A stretch of 64,000 nucleotides of DNA from Aureimonas phyllosphaerae. Its GTDB lineage: Bacteria > Pseudomonadota > Alphaproteobacteria > Rhizobiales > Rhizobiaceae. The stretch spans positions 1 to 64,000 of the forward strand of contig NZ_FOOA01000014.1 of the NCBI RefSeq assembly GCF_900113065.1. The letters are read 5' to 3'. Of the stretch, positions 28,111 to 50,388 are shown piece after piece. Under the pieces are notes generated by a model. The model saw only the letters and a list, made by a program, of their open reading frames with translations. It was not told the origin of the DNA and did no database searches. Every line of letters starts with the position of its first letter. Position 1 is the first letter of the stretch. A program made the position numbers and the translations under genes.

Positions 28111-28649
28111 GCTCCCTCCAGCCAGGAGAGCGTCTTGTCGACCCACGCAAGGAGTTCGATCTTGGCGTGTCCGACGACGCCCGGCCGCCTGATGCCGCAG
28201 AACTCCATGGTGGCATCGCCGGTCAGTTGCGCGAACTGAAGGCGCGTGCGAGCTACGCGACGGATTTCGATCTTGCCGTCCGCGATGTCTCGCTTCAGCG
28301 AAGGGCAATGACGAACGGACAGCGCTGCGCACTCCCGGTGCATCAGCGGCTCGACCTGCAGGATAGCTGGCCCTTCGGCCGCGTTCATGCGCAGGCTGGC
28401 ATGGGATAGAGAGACCCGCGTCCGCCCGCGAAGGAGCCGGCCGCACGTATCGCATAGACCTTGCTCCATCGCCTGCCGCTGGCGGACCATGTGCGGCTTG
28501 CCGAACAGCGGCTTTCCCTCGCCGGCCGACGATGGTTGGCACACCGCCTCATGGCCGCGGGCAAAGCGGCAAGGCGCGATGAACATCGCGGCCTCGCTCG
28601 TCCACGATGCGGTGAAGGGAACGGGGACCGAACCGAAATGCAGCATCAC
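28107..28649 (-). CDS. Hypothetical protein with zinc-ribbon-like CxxC
   Basis: 180 residues. GLCDTCGRLLRGRTRVSLSH (C66, C69) with a later HREC and HCP suggests a zinc-binding module. The N-terminus repeats Cys/His in weaker form (CRFARGHEAVC). It overlaps the PAPS-reductase-family gene and the initiator-like gene by 4 bases each. The function is unknown; co-expression with DNA-modifying enzymes suggests a nucleic-acid role. Confidence 0.5.
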   Translation of the reverse strand: MMLHFGSVPVPFTASWTSEAAMFIAPCRFARGHEAVCQPSSAGEGKPLFGKPHMVRQRQAMEQGLCDTCGRLLRGRTRVSLSHASLRMNAAEGPAILQVEPLMHRECAALSVRHCPSLKRDIADGKIEIRRVARTRLQFAQLTGDATMEFCGIRRPGVVGHAKIELLAWVDKTLSWLEGA

Positions 28650-29866
28650 AGCATCAGCGGCTGCACCGAGCCGTCCCTGAAAACGCTATCGAGCGGGGTG
28701 TCGGCTGTCGGCTCGTCGCCGTCCCAGCCGTTCGGCCAAGTGCCGGCGGAGATCAGTTCGCGGATGCGCGTGGCCTCCTCGATGCTGAGGATGTCCACGC
28801 CCGGCCGGCCGCGCCGATCCGCTGCGTCGTTGCACATCGCCTGGATCGTCTCGATGCGCGCCAGCGCCATGCGGCGAGCCTCGAAGGTGAGTGGCCCCAT
28901 GCGCTGCTTGTTCTTGCCCGTCGCCAGTTCACCGGCTCCGCCGAACCCGGTCTTCTTCAGCCGGTGGCGCGGCTCGCGCAGCTCGCGGTAGAGCGGCTTG
29001 AGCCCGCGCAGCGGCGCGAGGTGCTCCCAGCCCGGCGAGCGCAGGATCGTTTCCAGCGCCAGCTCCTGGCTGGCCAGCGGGCAGCCGATGCAGCCTGTGC
29101 GCGCGGCAATCTCGGCTGCCTCGTCGCCCCCATATGCGTCAGCGATCGCGGCCGTCGCCCAGCCGCCATAGGCCGGCATGGGCGCGTAGATGCGGAGCCA
29201 GTCCCAGACGTTGCAGACGCGCCAGTGCAGAAGGGGGGCGAGGGTCGCGATCCGGCCGCGCACGCCCTTCGCGTTCGGCAGGACCTCCTTAAACCAGCCC
29301 TGCCCGCACTCGGCGCCGTCCTTGCCGCAGGACATGACGATGCGCTGGTCGCGCACCGCGCTCTCGCCCTGGCGCACGCCGGTGAGCATCAGGATCTTGC
29401 CGTCGAGCTCGTTGAGGCGCGCTTCGACGGCCGCCGCCATTGGGTCGACCTTGATCTGCCGGGTGCACCAACGGAACGTGTTGTTGTTTGGCGGCGGCAC
29501 GCCGCGCCCGAGCATGTAGACGAGGAAGCGTTTGTCCAACGGCGCCATCACCACCTCGCAGCGGATGCCGCGGGCGGCGAGCTGCGCCATGATCGCCTTG
29601 GCCGACGCCTGGAGCGGCGGCAGCTCCTGCCGGGTGTCGGCGTAGAAGACAGTGAGCGAGCGCGGGGCGGCGATCCTGCCCGCGTCGATCAGGTGGACAA
29701 CGAGCGTCAGGAGAGCGGAGCTGTCCTTCCCGCCCGACCACGCGATGCACCAGTGATCGTGTGCTTGTCCGTAGGCCTGCAGCGAGGCGATCGTCAGCTC
29801 GACCGCTTCGTCGTAGACGAGCCGCTTTGAGCCGTCGAAGAGGGAGGGCTGGGTGCGGGCGCTCAT
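28646..29866 (-). CDS. PAPS-reductase-family (DndC-like) protein
   Basis: 406 residues. PP-loop ATPase motif SGGKDSS at residues 44-50; the family's conserved FRWCTRQIKVDP at ~132 and Cys-rich CIGCPLASQE at ~258, plus MSCGKDGAECG, suggest an iron-sulfur or thiol role. The closest general families are PAPS reductase and DndC, which activate sulfur or tRNA/DNA modification substrates. No DndA/B/D/E is present, so complete phosphorothioation is not supported. It lies in a run with two DNA methyltransferases. Confidence 0.8.
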   Translation of the reverse strand: MSARTQPSLFDGSKRLVYDEAVELTIASLQAYGQAHDHWCIAWSGGKDSSALLTLVVHLIDAGRIAAPRSLTVFYADTRQELPPLQASAKAIMAQLAARGIRCEVVMAPLDKRFLVYMLGRGVPPPNNNTFRWCTRQIKVDPMAAAVEARLNELDGKILMLTGVRQGESAVRDQRIVMSCGKDGAECGQGWFKEVLPNAKGVRGRIATLAPLLHWRVCNVWDWLRIYAPMPAYGGWATAAIADAYGGDEAAEIAARTGCIGCPLASQELALETILRSPGWEHLAPLRGLKPLYRELREPRHRLKKTGFGGAGELATGKNKQRMGPLTFEARRMALARIETIQAMCNDAADRRGRPGVDILSIEEATRIRELISAGTWPNGWDGDEPTADTPLDSVFRDGSVQPLML

Positions 29867-35998: not shown

Positions 35999-36011
35999 GA
36001 GGCCTGTCCTT

Positions 36012-36164
36012 TCAGGTCAGCCGCGTCGCGACCCAGACCAGGCCGAGCAGGATCAGGCCGAGCAGGAGGTCGAGCGTCGTGGGGAGGATGATCTGGAGGG
36101 CGAGAAGGACGCCGGCGGCGGTGAGAACCACCGCCCGCGCCTTGGCTTTCAGAAAGCCGATCAT
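36012..36164 (-). CDS. Small membrane peptide
   Basis: 50 residues from 36164 (MIGFLKAKARAVV). A basic N-terminus precedes a long hydrophobic stretch (LTAAGVLLALQIILPTTLDLLLGLILLGLVWVATRL), consistent with one or two membrane segments. It lies between the TerB-like gene and the next early gene. Confidence 0.4.
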   Translation of the reverse strand: MIGFLKAKARAVVLTAAGVLLALQIILPTTLDLLLGLILLGLVWVATRLT

Positions 36165-36171
36165 CGGCGGC

Positions 36172-36603
36172 TCAGAGCCCGACCGACGCGAGGCTGAGGC
36201 CGAGCCGCTTGGCCACCTCTTCGAGCACCTTGCGCTCCGCATCCTGAATCGAGCCGTCCGCTTCAGAGACGTCGACAGCGGCGAGAAGAACGAGCTCGGC
36301 GATCTCGGCATCGGCCGCGACCTGCTCGATTTCCTTGTAGAGACCCATGCGCCCAACCCGGCCGCCCTCGGCGCGATCCAGCATGCGCTGCGCGACCGTC
36401 TCGATCGTGCGAGCGTCGAAGGCGGCGGCGAGGCTCGCGTTCGCCTTGATCGCCTTCAGCGTCGCCGCGATCTCCTTCTCCGCGATGTCGCCATCGGCAG
36501 CGGCCACCAGCGCGGCAGCGGCGCAGACGGCTTCGAGGGCATCGGTACGCCCGGACAAGCGCGAGGCGCCGCCGAGGAGCTTCTGTTTCAAACTGGCCAG
36601 CAT
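36172..36603 (-). CDS. TerB-like protein
   Basis: 143 residues with the TerB helical pattern: EAVCAAAALVAAADGDIAEKEIAATLKAIKANASL and AELVLLAAVDVSEADGSIQDAERKVLEEVAKRLGLS (acidic AADGDI and EADGSI loops are the TerB hallmark). TerB-family proteins occur with tellurite resistance, and also with phage-defence and stress modules, so its role in this operon may be host modulation. A stable GC hairpin lies in its leader at 36701-36734. Confidence 0.75.
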   Translation of the reverse strand: MLASLKQKLLGGASRLSGRTDALEAVCAAAALVAAADGDIAEKEIAATLKAIKANASLAAAFDARTIETVAQRMLDRAEGGRVGRMGLYKEIEQVAADAEIAELVLLAAVDVSEADGSIQDAERKVLEEVAKRLGLSLASVGL

Positions 36604-36700
36604 GGCAGTCTCCGTTTTCGGGTAAGGGGCTGCCGTTCACGCGCCGGGGTGCGGAGCGAGGTGGGCGAGCCGAAAGGCCCGGTTTCATCCGGGATGGGGT

Positions 36701-36734
36701 GCCGGGCCGCCTGGGAGGAGGATGGCGGCCCGGC
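36701..36734. repeat. 11-bp perfect inverted repeat in a leader
   Basis: GCCGGGCCGCC, a 12-base loop and GGCGGCCCGGC form an all-GC 11-bp stem between the TerB-like gene and the gene at 36765. There is no T-run on the minus strand. It could attenuate or stabilise the early transcript. Confidence 0.6.
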
Positions 36735-36764
36735 GGTCACGCGGCGGGAGGGCGCCGCGCGCAG

Positions 36765-36980
36765 CTACCGAGGCGACGCGCGGGCGCGCGGTCGGGTGGC
36801 GTGCTCGACGTGCTGCTGTGCCGCACGATCGAGATGGTCAGTGAAGATGATGCCCGGCTGGTCGTTCGGCAGCGCCGGCCGCGGGTTCGTATGCTCGACG
36901 ACGAGGTCGGCGGGCTGCACGCGCCGCAGGGCCGATTCCATCGAGCGGCGCCGGCCGAAGGGCGGGGTCGCGGCGCTCAT
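36765..36980 (-). CDS. Hypothetical early protein
   Basis: 71 residues (MSAATPPFGRRRSMESALRRVQPADLVVEHT...), basic and Arg-rich; the ATG overlaps the stop of the CII-like gene (ATGA). No family was recognised; coupling suggests it is genuinely translated. Confidence 0.4.
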   Translation of the reverse strand: MSAATPPFGRRRSMESALRRVQPADLVVEHTNPRPALPNDQPGIIFTDHLDRAAQQHVEHATRPRARASPR

Positions 36981-37456
36981 GACAGGTCGATCTTCCGCAC
37001 GAGCCGCGTGAACAGCGCGATGACGTCGACGAACTCCTTGCGCAGCTCGGCGCGGTCGGCCGCGTCGATCTTCCCGTCCGCCTTGGCGCGGATTAGGGCG
37101 CCGGCGGCCTGAGAGTGCTCAAGCGCCATTTCAGCGACGTGCTCGTAGGAGAGAGGATCGAGCGCCGTGGTCGGATCGGTCTCGGCCGTCTCGGTCATCC
37201 AGCGCGTCAGGACAGCCGCACCGCAGAGCCGCTCGAGCTTGAGGACCGCCGCCATCGGAATGAAGGCTGGCGACTTCTCACCGTCCGGAATGCGCGGGTG
37301 GCACCATTTCGAGACGAGGGCTTTCGAGACGCCGAGCGCCGCCGCGGCGGCACCGTTGCCGCCGCACTGATCGACGAGCGCAGCCGTCATCAGCTTCATC
37401 GCGCGCTCGTCAGCCGTCAGCTCGCGCGGCTCTTCGGTCGGGCGGACGGCGCTCAT
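36977..37456 (-). CDS. CII-like / HTH early regulator
   Basis: 159 residues. An HTH near residues 30-75 (NGAAAAALGVSKALVSKWCHPRIPDGEKSPAFIPMAAVLKLERLCG) resembles phage CII-type and related regulators in lysogeny decisions. The C-terminal half is helical (QAAGALIRAKADGKIDAADRAELRKEFVDV). It follows the Xre gene with a 4-base overlap in the leftward early operon. Confidence 0.6.
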   Translation of the reverse strand: MSAVRPTEEPRELTADERAMKLMTAALVDQCGGNGAAAAALGVSKALVSKWCHPRIPDGEKSPAFIPMAAVLKLERLCGAAVLTRWMTETAETDPTTALDPLSYEHVAEMALEHSQAAGALIRAKADGKIDAADRAELRKEFVDVIALFTRLVRKIDLS

Positions 37457-38097
37457 CGGGCACCCCGTGAACGACTGGCCGGCGATTTCACGTGAACGCC
37501 GCGACGTCCCGCCGCAATCTCGCCAACAACAGGCAGGTCAGGCGAACCATGAAACGCATCGCGAAAATGCAGGGACCGTTCGGCGCGAAAGAGCGCGCGT
37601 ACGTCCTCTTCGGTGACGCGGGCCGCACCATGCGGGCGATCGGCGGTCAGCGCAGCGGCGACGGCGGCATGGGAGCGACCTTCCACTACCAGCATGCGGT
37701 AGGCACGGGCCTGCTCGGTCGTGGACAAGGTAGTGCTCCCGCGAAGGAGGGCGGTGCGAGCGGATGGAAGCTGGCGGCGAGCTGCCGCCTGCGCGGTCGG
37801 CTCAGGCTTGGCCACCGCTTCGATCTCGGCGGATGCCTCTCGATCGAAAGCGGCAGATGTGCCGCATTCCGAGAGAGGAGCGGCGAACAGGGCGAACCCA
37901 AGCGCGTCGGCCCAGCGGATAAGATCCTGGCTCGACGGATCGCAGCTGCCGTCCTCCCAGCGCTGAACGGTGCGGCGATCGACGCCGAGGCGGTCCGCGA
38001 GCTGCTGCTGGGTCAGCTTCGCGGCACGCCGACCGCGCAGGAGCGAGACATGCATGGTGATGAGGCGCGAGCGCCAAGAGTGATCAGCGCCGATCAT
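37453..38097 (-). CDS. Xre-family regulator with C-terminal extension
   Basis: 214 residues. Residues ~15-65 are a helix-turn-helix (RGRRAAKLTQQQLADRLGVDRRTVQRWEDGSCDPSSQDLIRWADALG). The C-terminal ~130 residues are Ala/Arg-rich with unknown role. The start at 38097 overlaps the Cro-like stop (ATGA), which fixes it. It is probably a second layer of lysogeny control. Confidence 0.65.
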   Translation of the reverse strand: MIGADHSWRSRLITMHVSLLRGRRAAKLTQQQLADRLGVDRRTVQRWEDGSCDPSSQDLIRWADALGFALFAAPLSECGTSAAFDREASAEIEAVAKPEPTAQAAARRQLPSARTALLRGSTTLSTTEQARAYRMLVVEGRSHAAVAAALTADRPHGAARVTEEDVRALFRAERSLHFRDAFHGSPDLPVVGEIAAGRRGVHVKSPASRSRGAR

Positions 38098-38354
38098 GCC
38101 GCAGCCCCGTTCGGAGCCTGCATCTCGTGACCCGCAGCGCCGGGCGCGCCTTCCAGCGGGTAGAGATCAGGCCGAAGTTCGTAGCGACTGACGCCGCTGC
38201 AACGCTCGACGATCAGGACCCGCAGCGGCGGGCAGATTTCCCATTGGCCGACGGCCTGCTGGGAAATGCCAGCGGCCAGACCAATAACGCTCGGGCCACC
38301 GGCCTTGCGAATTGCGCGTCGAAGCGCGTCTCTCATGTCGTCGAGTTCGCTCAT
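38094..38354 (-). CDS. Cro / YdaS-like repressor
   Basis: 86 residues from 38354 (MSELDDMRDALRRAIRKAGGPSVIGLAAGISQQAVGQWE). YdaS-type HTH with the second helix ISQQAVGQWEICPPLRVLIVERCSGVSRYELRPD. It is the first gene of the leftward early operon. The putative -10 lies only 6 bases before the ATG, so the mRNA would be leaderless. It probably acts as Cro on the shared operators. Confidence 0.75.
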   Translation of the reverse strand: MSELDDMRDALRRAIRKAGGPSVIGLAAGISQQAVGQWEICPPLRVLIVERCSGVSRYELRPDLYPLEGAPGAAGHEMQAPNGAAA

Positions 38355-38360
38355 GAACCT

Positions 38361-38390
38361 GATAAAAGCACAGCTTTCATTGCAGAACAA
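38361..38390 (-). promoter_or_regulatory. Leftward early promoter (PL-like)
   Basis: On the minus strand TTGTTC (-35), an 18-base spacer and TTTATC (-10) end 6 bases before the Cro-like ATG. It overlaps two repressor-operator-like palindromes, so it is expected to be repressed in the lysogen. Confidence 0.55.
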
Positions 38391-38424
38391 GCGAGACTTT
38401 TATGGACGAAAGTTGAGCTTTCGC
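38361..38424. promoter_or_regulatory. Operator cluster OL: three palindromes
   Basis: Three 19-base sites share the imperfect palindrome core GAAAGnnnnGCTT: 38362-38380 (minus strand, ATGAAAGCTGTGCTTTTAT), 38385-38403 (minus, ATAAAAGTCTCGCTTGTTC) and 38406-38424 (ACGAAAGTTGAGCTTTCGC). Centres are 23 and 21 bases apart, about two helical turns. They cover the leftward promoter and the start region of the repressor transcript. Confidence 0.7.
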
Positions 38425-38438
38425 CCCACAACTCTGTG

Positions 38439-39113
38439 ATGACGACTGTAGGTGAAGCGATCAAGGAGGCGCGGAAGCGTCGCGGGCTGGTCCAGAAGGA
38501 CGTTGCAAAAGCCGTCGGCGTTTCTGTTGCCGCGGTCGGTCAGTGGGAGCGGAGCGATAACGCTCTCACGATGGAGAACCTCCGGGCAGTCTGCGGCTTC
38601 CTGAAGATCGACCCGGTCTCGGCCCACCGCGGCGAGGTGCGGTATCTGGAGGAATCTCCGGATCTAAACGAGGTCGAACAGGTCACCGATCCTGGTCCCG
38701 TCGCGTTCGGCCCTCGCGATGTTCCAGTGGAAGGCGTCGGCATCGGTGGAGATGGAGCCGATTTCGAGTTCATCGGCGACGTCATCGACTATGCGCGCCG
38801 ACCGCCTGGCATAGCCGCGGTCCGCAACGTCTTCGCGATCCATGTTCTCGGAGACAGCATGTCTCCTCGCTTCGAAGTTGGCGATCTCGCCTATTGCGGT
38901 GGCCGGCATGCCGTGCCGGGGGACGACGTAGTCATTGAGCTGCAGGGTGAGCCTGGCGGATCCCGGCGCGGATATGTGAAGCGCCTCGTTCAGCGAACGG
39001 CGAAGGAGCTGATCGTTCGCCAGTTCAACCCTGCGATCGAGCTTCGTTTCCCCATGAAGGAGGTGAAGGCCATTCATCGCGTCATCCCCTTCAAGGAGCT
39101 CCTCGGCTTCTGA
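38439..39113 (+). CDS. CI-type lysogeny repressor (HTH + S24 peptidase-like)
   Basis: 224 residues from 38439 (MTTVGEAIKEARKRRGLVQKDVAKAVGVSVAAVGQWE). The N-terminal HTH is followed by a linker. The C-terminal S24-type domain has VLGDSMSPRFEVGDLAYC with catalytic Ser (~140) and RRGYVKRLV with catalytic Lys (~181). No obvious Ala-Gly cleavage pair is seen, so SOS self-cleavage is likely but the site is unclear. It is divergent from the Cro-like gene, between the two operator clusters. Confidence 0.85.
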   Translation: MTTVGEAIKEARKRRGLVQKDVAKAVGVSVAAVGQWERSDNALTMENLRAVCGFLKIDPVSAHRGEVRYLEESPDLNEVEQVTDPGPVAFGPRDVPVEGVGIGGDGADFEFIGDVIDYARRPPGIAAVRNVFAIHVLGDSMSPRFEVGDLAYCGGRHAVPGDDVVIELQGEPGGSRRGYVKRLVQRTAKELIVRQFNPAIELRFPMKEVKAIHRVIPFKELLGF

Positions 39114-39360
39114 GCCACCTGACGTCATTCGCGACACCTCCGGCCTCTGCGACATACCTCGGCGTAACGGAAATGTTCTCGCCTGGCTGACCGTCGGCCT
39201 TGCAGGTCTGACAGCGAAGGCTTTGAGCGAATCGGGGAAATGGAGTGTCATCTCGAACCCCATGCCTGCGTAGATCGATCAGGCGCAGCCAACGCTCACG
39301 CCCACAATCAGCACACTCGACGGCGACAGACCTGACATCCTTCATCGTTACGCTCGTCAT
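39091..39360 (-). CDS. Small CxxC-CxxC zinc-binding-like protein
   Basis: 89 residues on the strand opposite to the repressor, tail-to-tail with it (23-base overlap). CADCGRERW (C16, C19) and LRCQTCKADG (C50, C53) make a CX2C-X30-CX2C pattern like a zinc finger of alphaproteobacterial small proteins. Its promoter would share the operator region at 39438-39480. Plausible but not certain. Confidence 0.5.
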   Translation of the reverse strand: MTSVTMKDVRSVAVECADCGRERWLRLIDLRRHGVRDDTPFPRFAQSLRCQTCKADGQPGENISVTPRYVAEAGGVANDVRWLRSRGAP

Positions 39361-39437
39361 ACGCCCATCCGTTCATGCTTCGTTCTATTGTTGATTCTCC
39401 ACACGTCAGAGTCGATAGATCGCCAATGGATTCTCAC

Positions 39438-39479
39438 ATGAAAGTTTCGCTTGCACGAATATGAAAGCAGTGCTTTTAT
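39438..39479. promoter_or_regulatory. Operator cluster OR: two palindromes
   Basis: ATGAAAGTTTCGCTTGCAC (39438-39456) and ATGAAAGCAGTGCTTTTAT (39461-39479). The second matches the leftward site at 38361-38380 (read on the minus strand) at 18 of 20 bases. Centres are 23 bases apart, the same spacing as on the left. Confidence 0.7.
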
Positions 39480-39480
39480 T
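39451..39480 (+). promoter_or_regulatory. Rightward early promoter (PR-like)
   Basis: TTGCAC (-35), an 18-base spacer and TTTATT (-10): the same architecture as the leftward promoter. It is embedded in the two right operators, about 33 bases before the first gene of the rightward operon. Confidence 0.55.
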
Positions 39481-39512
39481 TCTGCATCGCCTTCGCGTTG
39501 TGGAGAAGCACC

Positions 39513-39983
39513 ATGGCATCCGCCCGCCGCACCATCGACCGCTCGACCGCCCAGCCCTTCCAGCCGGACGAGGACTTCTCCCAGGCGCTGCCGGAGGAGT
39601 TCGACGACCTCGCCTTCGATCAGGATATCCGCCGCAGCTTCGAGGAAGCCGAGACCTCGTCCGACTTCCTCGCCCAGGCCCGCTTAACCAATGGCAACGC
39701 TGGCCACGTAGGTGTTGCGAGGCCGGTCGCCTCGTCGGTTCGCTGCATGGCCGTCGAGGGCGGGTATCGCGTGGAAGCCAGCTTCCCCGGTGGCCAGATC
39801 ATTTCGGACGTCGTCCCGGACGACGCATCGGCGGAGATCGTCGAGCAGGTCTTCGGCGCGATCGCTGACGCCGGCACGGCGGAACTGGCCCGCCGCCGCA
39901 TCCGCAACATCCACCTCGATCCTCGTTTCGGCTCCGCCAGGGATCGCGCCGCGCTCGCCGCGAAGCACGTCCACCGGGCCTGA
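39513..39983 (+). CDS. Hypothetical rightward-operon protein
   Basis: 156 residues from 39513 (MASARRTIDRSTAQPFQPDED), after the GGAGAAG ribosome site. The acidic N-terminal ~55 residues (DDLAFDQDIRRSFEEAETSSDF) precede a beta/alpha domain containing GYRVEASFPGGQIISDVVPDDASAEIVEQVFGAI. First gene of the operon under the right promoter. No family was recognised. Confidence 0.6.
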   Translation: MASARRTIDRSTAQPFQPDEDFSQALPEEFDDLAFDQDIRRSFEEAETSSDFLAQARLTNGNAGHVGVARPVASSVRCMAVEGGYRVEASFPGGQIISDVVPDDASAEIVEQVFGAIADAGTAELARRRIRNIHLDPRFGSARDRAALAAKHVHRA

Positions 39984-39986
39984 CCA

Positions 39987-40223
39987 ATGCTCGAGCCAGC
40001 ATTCAGGCGGCGCGGCCGCGCGGTCACTCCCGATCGCGACGAGGACCTGACCCTGGAGCACTGGGTTCAGGCGCGGAAGGACTGCGCCCTCCTGATCCGC
40101 CGGCACGGCAAGACCGAAGTCGCCATCGCCTGGTGGCGACGCTGCAACGCCGCGATCGAGCGCCTCCTCGCCGGAGACGACATCGATCGCGAGATCAACC
40201 TCGTCCTCGGAGATGCCGCATGA
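39987..40223 (+). CDS. Small hypothetical protein
   Basis: 78 residues (MLEPAFRRRGRAVTPDRDEDLTLEHWVQARKDCALLIRRHGKTEVAIAWWRRCN...), helical. It ends in a 4-base overlap with the Xre gene. No family was recognised; placement suggests a small regulatory or accessory protein. Confidence 0.5.
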   Translation: MLEPAFRRRGRAVTPDRDEDLTLEHWVQARKDCALLIRRHGKTEVAIAWWRRCNAAIERLLAGDDIDREINLVLGDAA

Positions 40224-40651
40224 AACCTGAACGTGATCCCATGGACGTTGCCGTCGGTGCGAAACTGCGGAAGCGCCGCCTGGCCGCGCGCCTGAGCCTC
40301 GCCGATGTCGGCAAGGGCGTTGGCGTGACCTATCAGCAGGTCCAGAAGTACGAGAGCGGCGCGAACCGCGTCGCCTTCGCGACGGCCGTGCGCCTCGCCG
40401 AGTTCATCGGCTTCGACGGCGACGAGCTGGTGGCAGCCGCCGTCTCCGCGGTCGAGACGAGCGAGCACGCCCGGCCTCGCGCGCCGTCCGCTCGGGCTTT
40501 GGCGCTTGCTCAACGCGTTGATCGACTGCCGGCCGGCCAGCGCACCGCGATCGACCGCATCGTCGAGGCGATCCTCGACAGCCCGAACAACCGCTCGGAC
40601 CTCGCCGAGGTCGCCCGCGACGGCCACCCGGCCCTCTCCTACGCGCACTAA
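40220..40651 (+). CDS. Xre-family HTH regulator
   Basis: 143 residues from 40220 (MKPERDPMDVAVGAKLRKRRLAARLSLADVGKGVGVTYQQVQKYESG). HTH residues ~12-65; the C-terminal half is helical. It overlaps the previous stop (ATGA). It probably regulates the phage or the host from the early operon. Confidence 0.75.
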   Translation: MKPERDPMDVAVGAKLRKRRLAARLSLADVGKGVGVTYQQVQKYESGANRVAFATAVRLAEFIGFDGDELVAAAVSAVETSEHARPRAPSARALALAQRVDRLPAGQRTAIDRIVEAILDSPNNRSDLAEVARDGHPALSYAH

Positions 40652-40692
40652 GCGCGACGCCTCCCCCATCCCCGACACAAGGAACACGGCTC

Positions 40693-41571
40693 ATGGCCAT
40701 CCGCCTCGCCGCTTTCGCTGCGGCCACCCTAATGGGCGCCGCGGCGCCCGCCCTCGCCGACGCTCCTCTGCGCGTCTGCACCGCTTCCAAGAGCGGGAAC
40801 TACTTCGCCTTCGCCGAGCAGCTGCGCCGCACGCTCAACGGAGCCGTCGTCGTCGAGCCCATCGCGACGGAAGGCTCCTGGAAGAACCTCGACCTTCTGA
40901 AAAAGGGCGACTGCGACGCAGCCGTGATCCAGTCCGACGCCGACACGGTCTATCGGTCGAGCAACGCCGGCGCCGGCCTCGCCGTCCAGCGCGTCGGCGC
41001 CGTATTCAAGGAGACGCTCAACCTCGTCTGCAACGCTTCGCTCGGCATCGACGATCTGGGCGACCTGATCTCGAAGAAACCGAAGGTCGCGATCGGCAAG
41101 TTCGGCTCGGGCAGCTGGGTCTCGTGGAACGGCCTCGTCCACGCGGACAAGGTCGAGGGCGGCGACGAGTATTCAGTCATCCCGACCGAGCCGGTGGGCG
41201 ATGCGCTCGCACTCACCCAGATCGTCGACGGCTCCGATGTCGGCTGCATGTTCTTCACCTCGGCGAAGAACTCTGACTTCGTGGCGCGCATCGCAAGCGT
41301 CGCCGGCAAGGGTTCGGTCCTCGACTTCGTGGACGTCGTCGACAAGGACTTCAACGACACGCTCGATGCCAAGGGCAAGCCGCTCTACGAGCCGACGGCC
41401 GTGAAGTACGAGGGCTTCGGCCACTGGGGCTCGACCGATACCCTGTCGGTGACCGCCCTCTTCTACGTGTCCGACGCCTGGATCGCGGCGAACCCCGACG
41501 CCTTTGATGACGTCGTCTCGTCCTTCCTGCCGGTCGCGGCGAACCTGCGCGCGGCGCGCGGGCTCGATTGA
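40693..41571 (+). CDS. TAXI-type periplasmic solute-binding protein (phage-borne)
   Basis: 292 residues with a signal peptide (MAIRLAAFAAATLMGAAAPALADA). The mature part follows the TAXI/periplasmic-binding fold: LRVCTASKSGNYFAFAEQLRR, then GDCDAAVIQSDADTVYRS, VFKETLNLVCNAS, KVAIGKFGSGSWVSWNG and ALTQIVDGSDVGCMFFTSAKNSD. TAXI proteins normally deliver substrates to TRAP transporters, but no TRAP permease is near. In a prophage early operon this is unusual; binding a small ligand or a surface component at the periplasm is inferred. Confidence 0.75.
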   Translation: MAIRLAAFAAATLMGAAAPALADAPLRVCTASKSGNYFAFAEQLRRTLNGAVVVEPIATEGSWKNLDLLKKGDCDAAVIQSDADTVYRSSNAGAGLAVQRVGAVFKETLNLVCNASLGIDDLGDLISKKPKVAIGKFGSGSWVSWNGLVHADKVEGGDEYSVIPTEPVGDALALTQIVDGSDVGCMFFTSAKNSDFVARIASVAGKGSVLDFVDVVDKDFNDTLDAKGKPLYEPTAVKYEGFGHWGSTDTLSVTALFYVSDAWIAANPDAFDDVVSSFLPVAANLRAARGLD

Positions 41572-41822
41572 GCGAGCCGGATCCGGCCGGCGTCCGGTTT
41601 CTCGATCGGCGCGCCGGCCAGTGCGCCTGGCCTCTCTGGGGCGAGGACGTGCCGCTCGGCGACAAGCGCTGCTGTGGCCGCTCCATCCCTCTTGAACGCA
41701 GCTACTGCGCCCAGCATCGGGCGCGGGGCACCAGCCGGGGCACGCCGTCCGAGCGCGCGGCCGACCAGACCCTCCTCACCCGAGCCGCGAAGGACACCCT
41801 GTCATGCGTGAGCGAGAAGTGA
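41568..41822 (+). CDS. GcrA-like C-terminal zinc protein
   Basis: 84 residues. GQCAWPLWGEDVPLGDKRCCGRSI and PLERSYCAQHRARG match the C-terminal zinc-like region of GcrA, the alphaproteobacterial cell-cycle regulator (Cys19, Cys35/36, Cys47, His50), but there is no N-terminal HTH. It overlaps the TAXI gene by 4 bases, so the two are co-translated. It could bind the sigma-70 interface like GcrA and interfere with cell-cycle transcription; that is inference. Confidence 0.6.
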   Translation: MSEPDPAGVRFLDRRAGQCAWPLWGEDVPLGDKRCCGRSIPLERSYCAQHRARGTSRGTPSERAADQTLLTRAAKDTLSCVSEK

Positions 41823-49486: not shown

Positions 49487-50388
49487 TTATGGGCTTGTCG
49501 GCCACGGCTGAGGTGGCCGGCGAAGTGGGTCGGGGTGGCGCAGTTTGGCATGGCACGGCGCCAGGTGCCGGCGGACGGTAACTAAGGCTCGAGCAAGTCG
49601 CCGTTTGTTGTATTGCTGCCGCCAGCTCTCGATCACGATCCGGGCCTCGGCGAGGCTATAGAAGATCTCGCCGTTCAGGAGTTCGTCCCGAAGCTTGGAG
49701 TTGAAGCTCTCGCAATAGCCGTTCTCCCATGGGTTGCCGGGTTCGATGAACGCGGTCCTGGCCCCGACCGCTCCGATCCAATCGCGCACCGCCTTGGCGA
49801 TGGACTCCGGGCCATTGTCTCAACGAACGTTGCCGGGCACACCGTGCGGAATGAAGAGGACATCCAGGACGTCGGTGGATTTGAGCGCCCGATCGATCCG
49901 GATGGCCAAGCATTCGCGGGAGAACTCGTCGATCACATCGGCGCAAACGCGTAGCGTTTGTCGCTGAGCATTCGGAACTTACGGCCGTCATGGGTTCGAC
50001 CCTCCACGAAGCCATAGGACCGGACATGGTTGGGATGCTCAAGCCGAAGCCGAACGCAGGACCCATCGTTCAGCCAGAGCCGACCGCGCTTGGGCTGCCT
50101 GGCCGGTACCTTCAGACCTTCCTGGCGCCAGATGCGCTCGACGCGCTTTACGTTGACCACCCACCCGGCATCTCGCAGCAGGGCCGTGATCCGGCGATAC
50201 CCGTAGCGCCCATACTGCGTCGCCAGCTCGATGATGTCGGCGGTTAGTGCCGCATCGTCGGCTCGCCCCTTGGGCGCCTTGCGCTGCGTCGATCGGTGCT
50301 GCCCCAGAACCCGGCATGCCAGCCGCTCCGACACACCGGACTTACGCAGGGTGTGGTCGATGTAACGCCGCCGCCGGGCGGGGCTCAC
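49487..50388 (-). pseudogene. IS3-family orfB transposase, frameshifted
   Basis: From SPARRRRYIDHTLRKSG through SYGFVEGRTHDGRKFRML, the first catalytic Asp of the DDE triad is Gly (SYGFVE instead of SYDFVE). A frameshift follows (to CADVIDEFSREC), then an in-frame TGA in the D-N-G-P-E stretch (VR*DNGPE), and another frameshift near the C-terminus that would restore SLSYRPPAPG. The domain ends with ENGYCESFNSKLRDELLNGEIF. It is non-functional. Confidence 0.75.

Follow-up and report, generated by a model that had tools for sequence, protein, structure and literature searches.

Results

An Aureimonas Prophage Encodes an Exported Protein with a TAXI Fold

The window, by which we mean the whole stretch of DNA analyzed, covers 64,000 nt of Aureimonas phyllosphaerae (contig NZ_FOOA01000014.1, positions 1 to 64,000). 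The features discussed below are listed by position.

36012..36164, minus strand: 50-aa hydrophobic protein (2TM), two membrane segments by eye, start 7 nt past the TerB stop
36172..36603, minus strand: TerB-like protein (PF05099, 45.3 bits, cut-off 24.4; phrog_632)
38094..38354, minus strand: Cro-like HTH, first gene of the leftward operon, putative role from position and sequence
38363..38379, minus strand: operator-like dyad TGAAAGCTGTGCTTTTA, ahead of the leftward operon
38439..39113, plus strand: CI-like repressor (HTH_3 and Peptidase_S24 profile matches), start by eye
39462..39478, plus strand: second dyad copy TGAAAGCAGTGCTTTTA, ahead of the rightward TAXI operon
40220..40651, plus strand: HTH (Cro/CI-like) regulator directly upstream of the TAXI gene, ending 41 nt before its start
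40693..41571, plus strand: gene for a TAXI-family solute-binding protein of 292 aa (ORF, profile and predicted fold)
40693..40758, plus strand: Sec-type signal peptide, residues 1-22 of the TAXI protein, from the sequence, cleavage after ALA by eye
41568..41822, plus strand: small GcrA-C-terminus-like protein (18.2 bits, below the Pfam cut-off of 26.9), TTG start overlapping the TAXI stop

The TAXI gene is real and had been correctly read (40693-41571, plus strand, 292 aa) in the original prediction. Its placement in a prophage also holds, since the surrounding element carries genes for a terminase, a portal, a major head protein and a tape measure, and an IMG/VR virus record (window ~241-49113) spans it. 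The product matches the Pfam profile NMT1_3/PF16868 with 47.6 bits, above the curated cut-off of 27, and phrog_6856 with an E value of 4.4e-43. The NCBIfam profile TRAP_TAXI (TIGR02122) is matched with an E value of 6e-13, but the score of 48.3 bits is under the curated cut-off of 84.35, and the window protein is thus a divergent relative; the other three phage members that we scanned likewise fall under this cut-off.

The signal peptide that had been predicted is evident as a Sec-like N terminus (MAIRLAAFAAATLMGAAAPALA/D), and 108 of the 110 phage TAXI ORFs longer than 230 aa (three shorter ones of 113 being excluded) pass a simple Sec rule of our own. An AlphaFold model computed from a 31-sequence alignment has a mean pLDDT of 87.7 and a pTM of 0.84. 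When this model was compared with the PDB using Foldseek, ranks 1-7 were all TAXI chains (E values from 4.1e-15 to 2.1e-13), including VcGluP with glutamate and a Thermus protein with L-glutamate. A sequence profile search recovers the same PDB proteins, two of which are labeled immunogenic protein. The binding-protein fold that had been proposed is therefore predicted to be that of TAXI proteins and, with an export signal present, neither of the outcomes set against the proposal, a missing fold or a cytoplasmic protein, arose.

The Ligand Site Is Near-Invariant in Phage TAXI Proteins

Glutamate in VcGluP is contacted by Y45, S75, Q93, E125 and the main chain of G156, among others, with Y45 and Q93 described as the most important residues (PMC11574862). 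The window protein has Y37, S62, Q80, E107 and G140 as equivalents, as judged from alignments in which these five contact positions were compared and Y200 and M201 left out. Among 91 unique full-length phage proteins, Y, S/T and Q are each found in 91/91, and E and G each in 90/91; in the alignment of TAXI sequences given in PMC11574862, Y45 occurs in 78% and Q93 in 54%. Y, Q and E are jointly present in 25/25 phage vs. 5/30 cellular proteins, a count in which six cellular rows are gapped at Y, partly from trimming. Phage TAXI proteins have kept these VcGluP-type contact residues near-invariant, and binding of glutamate itself is predicted.

Cysteines in the 91 phage rows occur in pairs: 46 rows have Cys29 with Cys74 and 44 have Cys113 with Cys185. 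Both pairs are present in 44 rows, and 45 rows have none of the four. This pattern of co-occurrence fits two disulphides, which we count towards a periplasmic location. Sensing of a periplasmic metabolite, one of the roles raised in the original prediction, gains from the near-invariant ligand site.

Phage TAXI Proteins Form a Separate Lineage

The statement that phages rarely encode periplasmic binding proteins stands by number, tblastn having matched 58 records out of 50,697 from phages at E ≤ 10, of which the weakest are probably chance hits. The gene nevertheless turns up repeatedly in phages that are not related to one another, and there constitutes a separate lineage. We read TAXI stretches from Rhizobium phage RHph_I1_18, Bradyrhizobium phage BDU-MI-1, EBPR siphovirus 2, Sinorhizobium phage PBC5, Agrobacterium phage Atu_ph08, Pseudomonas phage Lana, Erwinia phages SNUABM_6, SNUABM_9 and Wellington, Klebsiella phage FBKp24, Achromobacter phage Motura, Pseudaeromonas phage KLEP7 and Rhodobacter phage RcXuper, and pattern-limited scans of IMG/VR contributed 54, 28 and 15 more loci. 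The carriers are virulent jumbo phages, alphaproteobacterial temperate phages and lambdoid prophages, the lambdoid type being rare in E. coli (3/5426 genomes with one DNA query).

When 25 phage and 30 cellular TAXI proteins are placed in one tree, 24 phage proteins and one plasmid protein split off with a support of 100/98, and the same separation is seen in a tree with 7 cellular rows. The phage proteins share the fold and most ligand-contact residues of VcGluP (VC0430) and TtGluBP, but differ from both in belonging to a separate lineage under the NCBIfam TRAP_TAXI cut-off. Labels such as “TRAP transporter solute receptor” and “hypothetical protein” conceal this lineage. In the open-licence literature that we searched, no phage TAXI module is described and no paper reports experiments with a phage TAXI protein; in a report on Ralstonia jumbo phages, a TRAP solute-receptor-like gene is merely listed, after ABC transporter subunits (PMC5468394).

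The TAXI protein of phage Motura is on the cellular side of the tree, where long branches meet and its placement is unsure, and may be a separate capture; in this locus (L022 2019-3852), TAXI comes after the gene of a predicted membrane protein with a coiled coil, recognized by eye, and before that of homospermidine synthase. The TAXI protein of Methylobacterium indicum plasmid pVL1_2 (L019 4914-5897) groups with the phage lineage, and a ParA-family gene is found ~1.5 kb away. A prohibitin-family gene lies near TAXI in RcXuper (L024 2905-4964), and two vWA-domain genes lie within 6 kb of it in RHph_I1_18 (L012 1303-12298).

No Transporter Partner Was Found in the Tested Hosts

Both VcGluP and TtGluBP are TAXI-TRAP proteins, VcGluP having a fused permease, and TAXI-TRAP systems are reported with fused DctQM (PMC5812351). 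In contrast, a profile search of the Aureimonas host genome gave no fused TRAP permease over the cut-off, and no TRAP gene is among the matches of the window ORFs scanned, in agreement with the earlier remark that the gene lacks a TRAP partner. The TRAP_fused profile scores over its cut-off in 0/3 genomes with a phage-type TAXI (host included), where weaker matches exist, and in 5/5 tested genomes with a cellular TAXI, out of seven such genomes, near the TAXI gene in each. GltS is similarly found in 0/3 genomes with a phage-type TAXI, host included, and a search of the host genome for a second PF16868 protein found none over the cut-off. The host does score over the cut-off for DctM, with seven matches of which six are strong, and this leaves room for an unorthodox partner.

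These results bear on the most familiar role of a binding protein, namely that TAXI is an auxiliary metabolic gene product which scavenges glutamate or a relative and docks to a host permease, in the manner proposed for cyanophage PstS and phosphate. Such a role would make use of the intact ligand site and perhaps of one of the host DctM proteins, and has precedents both in pstS of cyanobacterial viruses (PMC3429862) and in the pairing of a TAXI protein with another secondary transporter, GltS (PMC12344293). Since fused TRAP permeases over the cut-off and GltS are absent from the three tested host genomes, TAXI-TRAP is reported with fused DctQM (PMC5812351), and the recurrent tiny membrane neighbors described below are too small for a known permease, we regard uptake as improbable. 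The BP0403-GltS pair is alike in that a TAXI protein is linked to a non-TRAP membrane protein, and differs in that GltS was not found in the tested hosts; moreover, BP0403 is a dimer and carries an additional domain (PMC12344293). Although a binding protein is normally taken for a component of an uptake system, the phage lineage keeps its site without a transporter found in the tested hosts. What these phages encode is very probably a secreted protein of separate lineage, with an intact site and without a known transporter in those hosts.

Small Membrane Proteins and TerB Recur Near Phage TAXI Genes

A hydrophobic ORF is directly downstream of TAXI in 61/113 loci vs. 10/563 control genes, the latter drawn from a single query (phrog_2045 loci) and with flank lengths that differ from those of the TAXI loci. 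The small-TM ORFs were defined as having 34-75 aa and starting −20 to +80 nt from the TAXI stop, with a hydropathy cut-off that is by itself no proof of two membrane segments. When the loci are clustered at 70%, such an ORF is seen in at least half of the members in 9/22 clusters (p = 7e-11), a statistic that weakens in 50% clusters (3/12, p = 0.001). A functional linkage of TAXI with 2TM is, on balance, probable.

The window TAXI gene is without an adjoining small TM gene, its 2TM being 4 kb off, beside TerB. This TerB-linked protein scores 33.6 bits against an HMM made exclusively of 21 TAXI-linked small proteins, the best of 50 of its own shuffles reaching 6.9. All 50 of their own shuffles are beaten by 9/16 TerB-linked small proteins against the TAXI-linked HMM and by 10/21 TAXI-linked small proteins against a TerB-linked HMM built after dropping L243 and L270, which looked unrelated. 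The TAXI-linked proteins that pass are mainly of the PBC5-like group, plus one lambdoid, and those that fail include most lambdoid small proteins and those of FBKp24 and Lana; the protein of L115 passes yet scores higher reversed. In a first kinship test, which used a redundant HMM of 24 sequences, 25 TAXI-linked small proteins were above all 111 control small ORFs, and the TerB-linked ones of phages Evi and JP1 were below several controls. For part of the set, kinship of TAXI-linked and TerB-linked small proteins is well supported by these comparisons. A single 2TM family across all phages is not claimed, as the stricter shuffle test backs only part of the set. Another small protein, of 35-36 aa and starting MVIA(I/V)(L/M)NNLP, follows TAXI in L125 and L126, and one of this type is upstream of TerB in Sinorhizobium phage phiM5 (L110 3606-3716).

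Of the Ter proteins, TerB is present in the same element as TAXI (36172-36603), and TerC, TerD, TelA and TerF are not among the profile matches of the window ORFs scanned. TerB is nearby in 16/113 TAXI loci vs. 0/79 control loci (Fisher p = 0.0018), two of the 16 (the window and L018) having supplied rows to the TerB HMM, and it is found in 4/22 TAXI clusters. It exceeds the Pfam cut-off in 5/20 TAXI genomes or records, one of which is the host genome, and in 0/10 TAXI virus records. The five Erwinia-type jumbo loci with TerB (L018 1489-3006; L020, L041, L048 and L088) have the three genes in a row, TerB-2TM-TAXI. In loci found through TerB, a small hydrophobic ORF directly follows it in 29/43, and TAXI is within the fetched flank in only 4/43, the window prophage and three on contigs already in the set. 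TerB-2TM is thus common without TAXI, and we would put a functional linkage of TAXI with TerB at a little under an even chance.

Ter stress and phage-inhibition systems, as well as phage TerB/TciA, have TerB in common with some TAXI neighborhoods, that of the window included. The TerB of Erwinia jumbo phages listed as standalone by Iyer et al. (PMC7824862) is here part of the TerB-2TM-TAXI row of five loci. The main text of that paper has no word beginning TAXI, solute, substrate-binding, TRAP or periplasm, and TAXI is not named in the Ter-system literature consulted, including PMC7824862 and PMC12054061.

The TAXI Gene Is Predicted to Be Expressed in Lytic Growth

The leftward operon runs from the Cro-like gene to genes for a CII-like protein, TerB and 2TM, and the HTH and TAXI genes follow the CI-like gene on the rightward strand. 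The CI-like gene is flanked by the longest inverted repeat found in 36000-41800, a 43-nt pair that is 79% complementary. Within the window, the dyad core TGAAAGCWGTGCTTTTA is confined to 38363-38379 and 39462-39478, each copy pointing along its operon, while 0.2 matches would be expected, an estimate made after the fact with a pattern written from the sites themselves. A second operator pattern occurs at chance level, and in a scan of 38000-41700 no sigma-70-like site was found and terminator-like sites are near chance. A. ureilytica, in which we found the closest homolog of the window TAXI, shares the layout over two contigs and has another dyad pair, which differs in sequence, at comparable positions (L106 1477-1499 and 2997-3019; 23 nt, 91% complementary). 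We infer from this layout that, in the lysogen, both operons are kept silent by the CI-like protein, and that lytic growth is when TAXI, TerB and 2TM are produced, all three together. The early operon of the original prediction fits this arrangement, TAXI being downstream of a CI-like repressor and an operator-like dyad, with its expression a prediction from sequence. A Cro/CI-type HTH is just upstream of TAXI in 14/113 loci, as judged with an HMM built from 5 of those 14.

This layout matters for superinfection exclusion, in which TAXI and 2TM would block DNA entry or adsorption of competitors and ligand binding would be secondary. Virulent and temperate phages alike carry the gene, Iyer et al. 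suggest that phage Ter genes counter superinfecting phages (PMC7824862), and ter insertions in plasmid R478 reduce phage inhibition and colicin resistance, with terA, C, D, Z, E and F named and terB not (PMC12054061), all of which would suit a role in exclusion. Plain blocking would, however, need no near-invariant ligand site, and, from the operator layout, the gene is predicted to be little expressed in a lysogen, so that exclusion, if any, would act in lytic growth and not as lysogen immunity. We hold exclusion to be unlikely, and masking of a receptor by TAXI, as had been suggested, has no support here. The open-licence literature searched yielded no prophage periplasmic binding protein with superinfection exclusion.

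Comparison with A. ureilytica also speaks to whether TAXI is neutral or fortuitous cargo acquired from bacteria. Identity to the window proteins is 71% for TAXI, 68% for 2TM, 55% for TerB (83 aa present) and 58% for a gp37/68-like protein vs. 27-50% for the repressor, CII-like and HTH genes. That TAXI is better conserved than its regulatory neighbors and has a near-invariant site weakens the idea of an operon hitchhiker. Cargo would account for the variable slots in which TAXI is found and for its absence from the 79 control loci, but hardly for a separate lineage, purifying selection (dN 0.26 and dS 0.76 between the window and A. ureilytica copies), a near-invariant site and recurrent neighbors, and we consider it very improbable.

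Lambdoid TAXI Genes Lie Upstream of Lysis Genes

In other phages TAXI is in different positions, yet these again point to lytic growth. In lambdoid prophages (L095 12001-12998; L049-L094), lysis genes are found downstream of TAXI, which is in most cases accompanied by a tiny hydrophobic ORF. An endolysin match is found within 4 kb downstream in 38/43 of these loci, using six endolysin queries taken from these very loci, of which four had been identified by eye; the first two alone gave 19/43. In an annotated E. coli locus, a DUF1133 gene and a tRNA are followed by TAXI and then by two holin genes and a glycoside hydrolase 19 gene. In coliphage Evi (L109 4001-4596), the lysis genes are preceded, at the corresponding site, by TerB and a small hydrophobic ORF, and in EBPR siphovirus 2 an annotated lysozyme gene is 3.1 kb downstream of TAXI, on the other strand.

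Such positions would be expected if TAXI and 2TM were an antiholin-like pair that times or delays lysis on a periplasmic signal, and the lambdoid loci, the gene order before two holins, Evi and EBPR siphovirus 2 can all be read in this way. However, the best endolysin matches are spread over the six queries and represent several types, as expected of a cargo slot rather than a matched regulator, and no lysis gene is annotated in the stretches around TAXI in PBC5, whose annotation has almost no function names, in Atu_ph08, or in one Erwinia and one Klebsiella jumbo phage. Lysis control therefore seems to us quite improbable.

Discussion

The interpretation that we favor, tentatively and at somewhat less than even chances, is that phage TAXI proteins are part of a module that monitors or protects the envelope during lytic growth, and that they do not serve nutrient uptake. 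In such a module, a TAXI protein of the phage lineage would be exported to the periplasm, where it would close on a small ligand resembling an amino acid, with L-glutamate or one of its close relatives as the likeliest candidate, and feed no transporter. TAXI would be the periplasmic arm and 2TM a tiny inner-membrane part, with TerB as a cytoplasmic part in some phages, including the one in the window, and the three may be in contact. Made during lytic growth, the module would most likely report on, or stabilize, the inner membrane of the infected cell. For example, periplasmic glutamate released through the membrane breach of a superinfecting phage or from lysing neighbors could be the trigger, and the response would go through 2TM/TerB. 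A trans-envelope chemosensor, in which TAXI, 2TM and sometimes TerB sense a periplasmic amino acid and adjust the envelope or the course of infection, is a form that we consider unlikely. To our knowledge, it would be without precedent among phage-encoded small-molecule sensors in facing the periplasm via a binding protein.

The frequent company of TAXI with a tiny membrane protein, and sometimes with TerB, hints that phages watch over or protect the envelope of their host cell. Cyanophage PstS is comparable in being a phage-encoded periplasmic binding protein, and differs in serving phosphate uptake. PstS is of a different binding-protein family from TAXI, and we know of no TerB or 2TM link for it. 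TAXI, a tiny membrane neighbor and TerB are a concrete set of three genes that can be tested, and could connect an outward-facing ligand with the unexplained Ter phenotypes of phage inhibition and colicin resistance.

Several minor observations concern the prophage itself. Among PADLOC defense models, TAXI and 2TM were unmatched and TerB reached only 13-16 bits; nothing convincing was found among phage-defense models, the HTH giving 12-23-bit RmrA matches. The contig of the window has no match to Phage_integrase (PF00589, E ≤ 1e-5). Just past the right end of the IMG/VR record, at 49487-50388, are transposase-like ORFs recognized by eye, and within the prophage there is a phosphoadenosine phosphosulfate reductase-like gene (28646-29866; phrog_12882).
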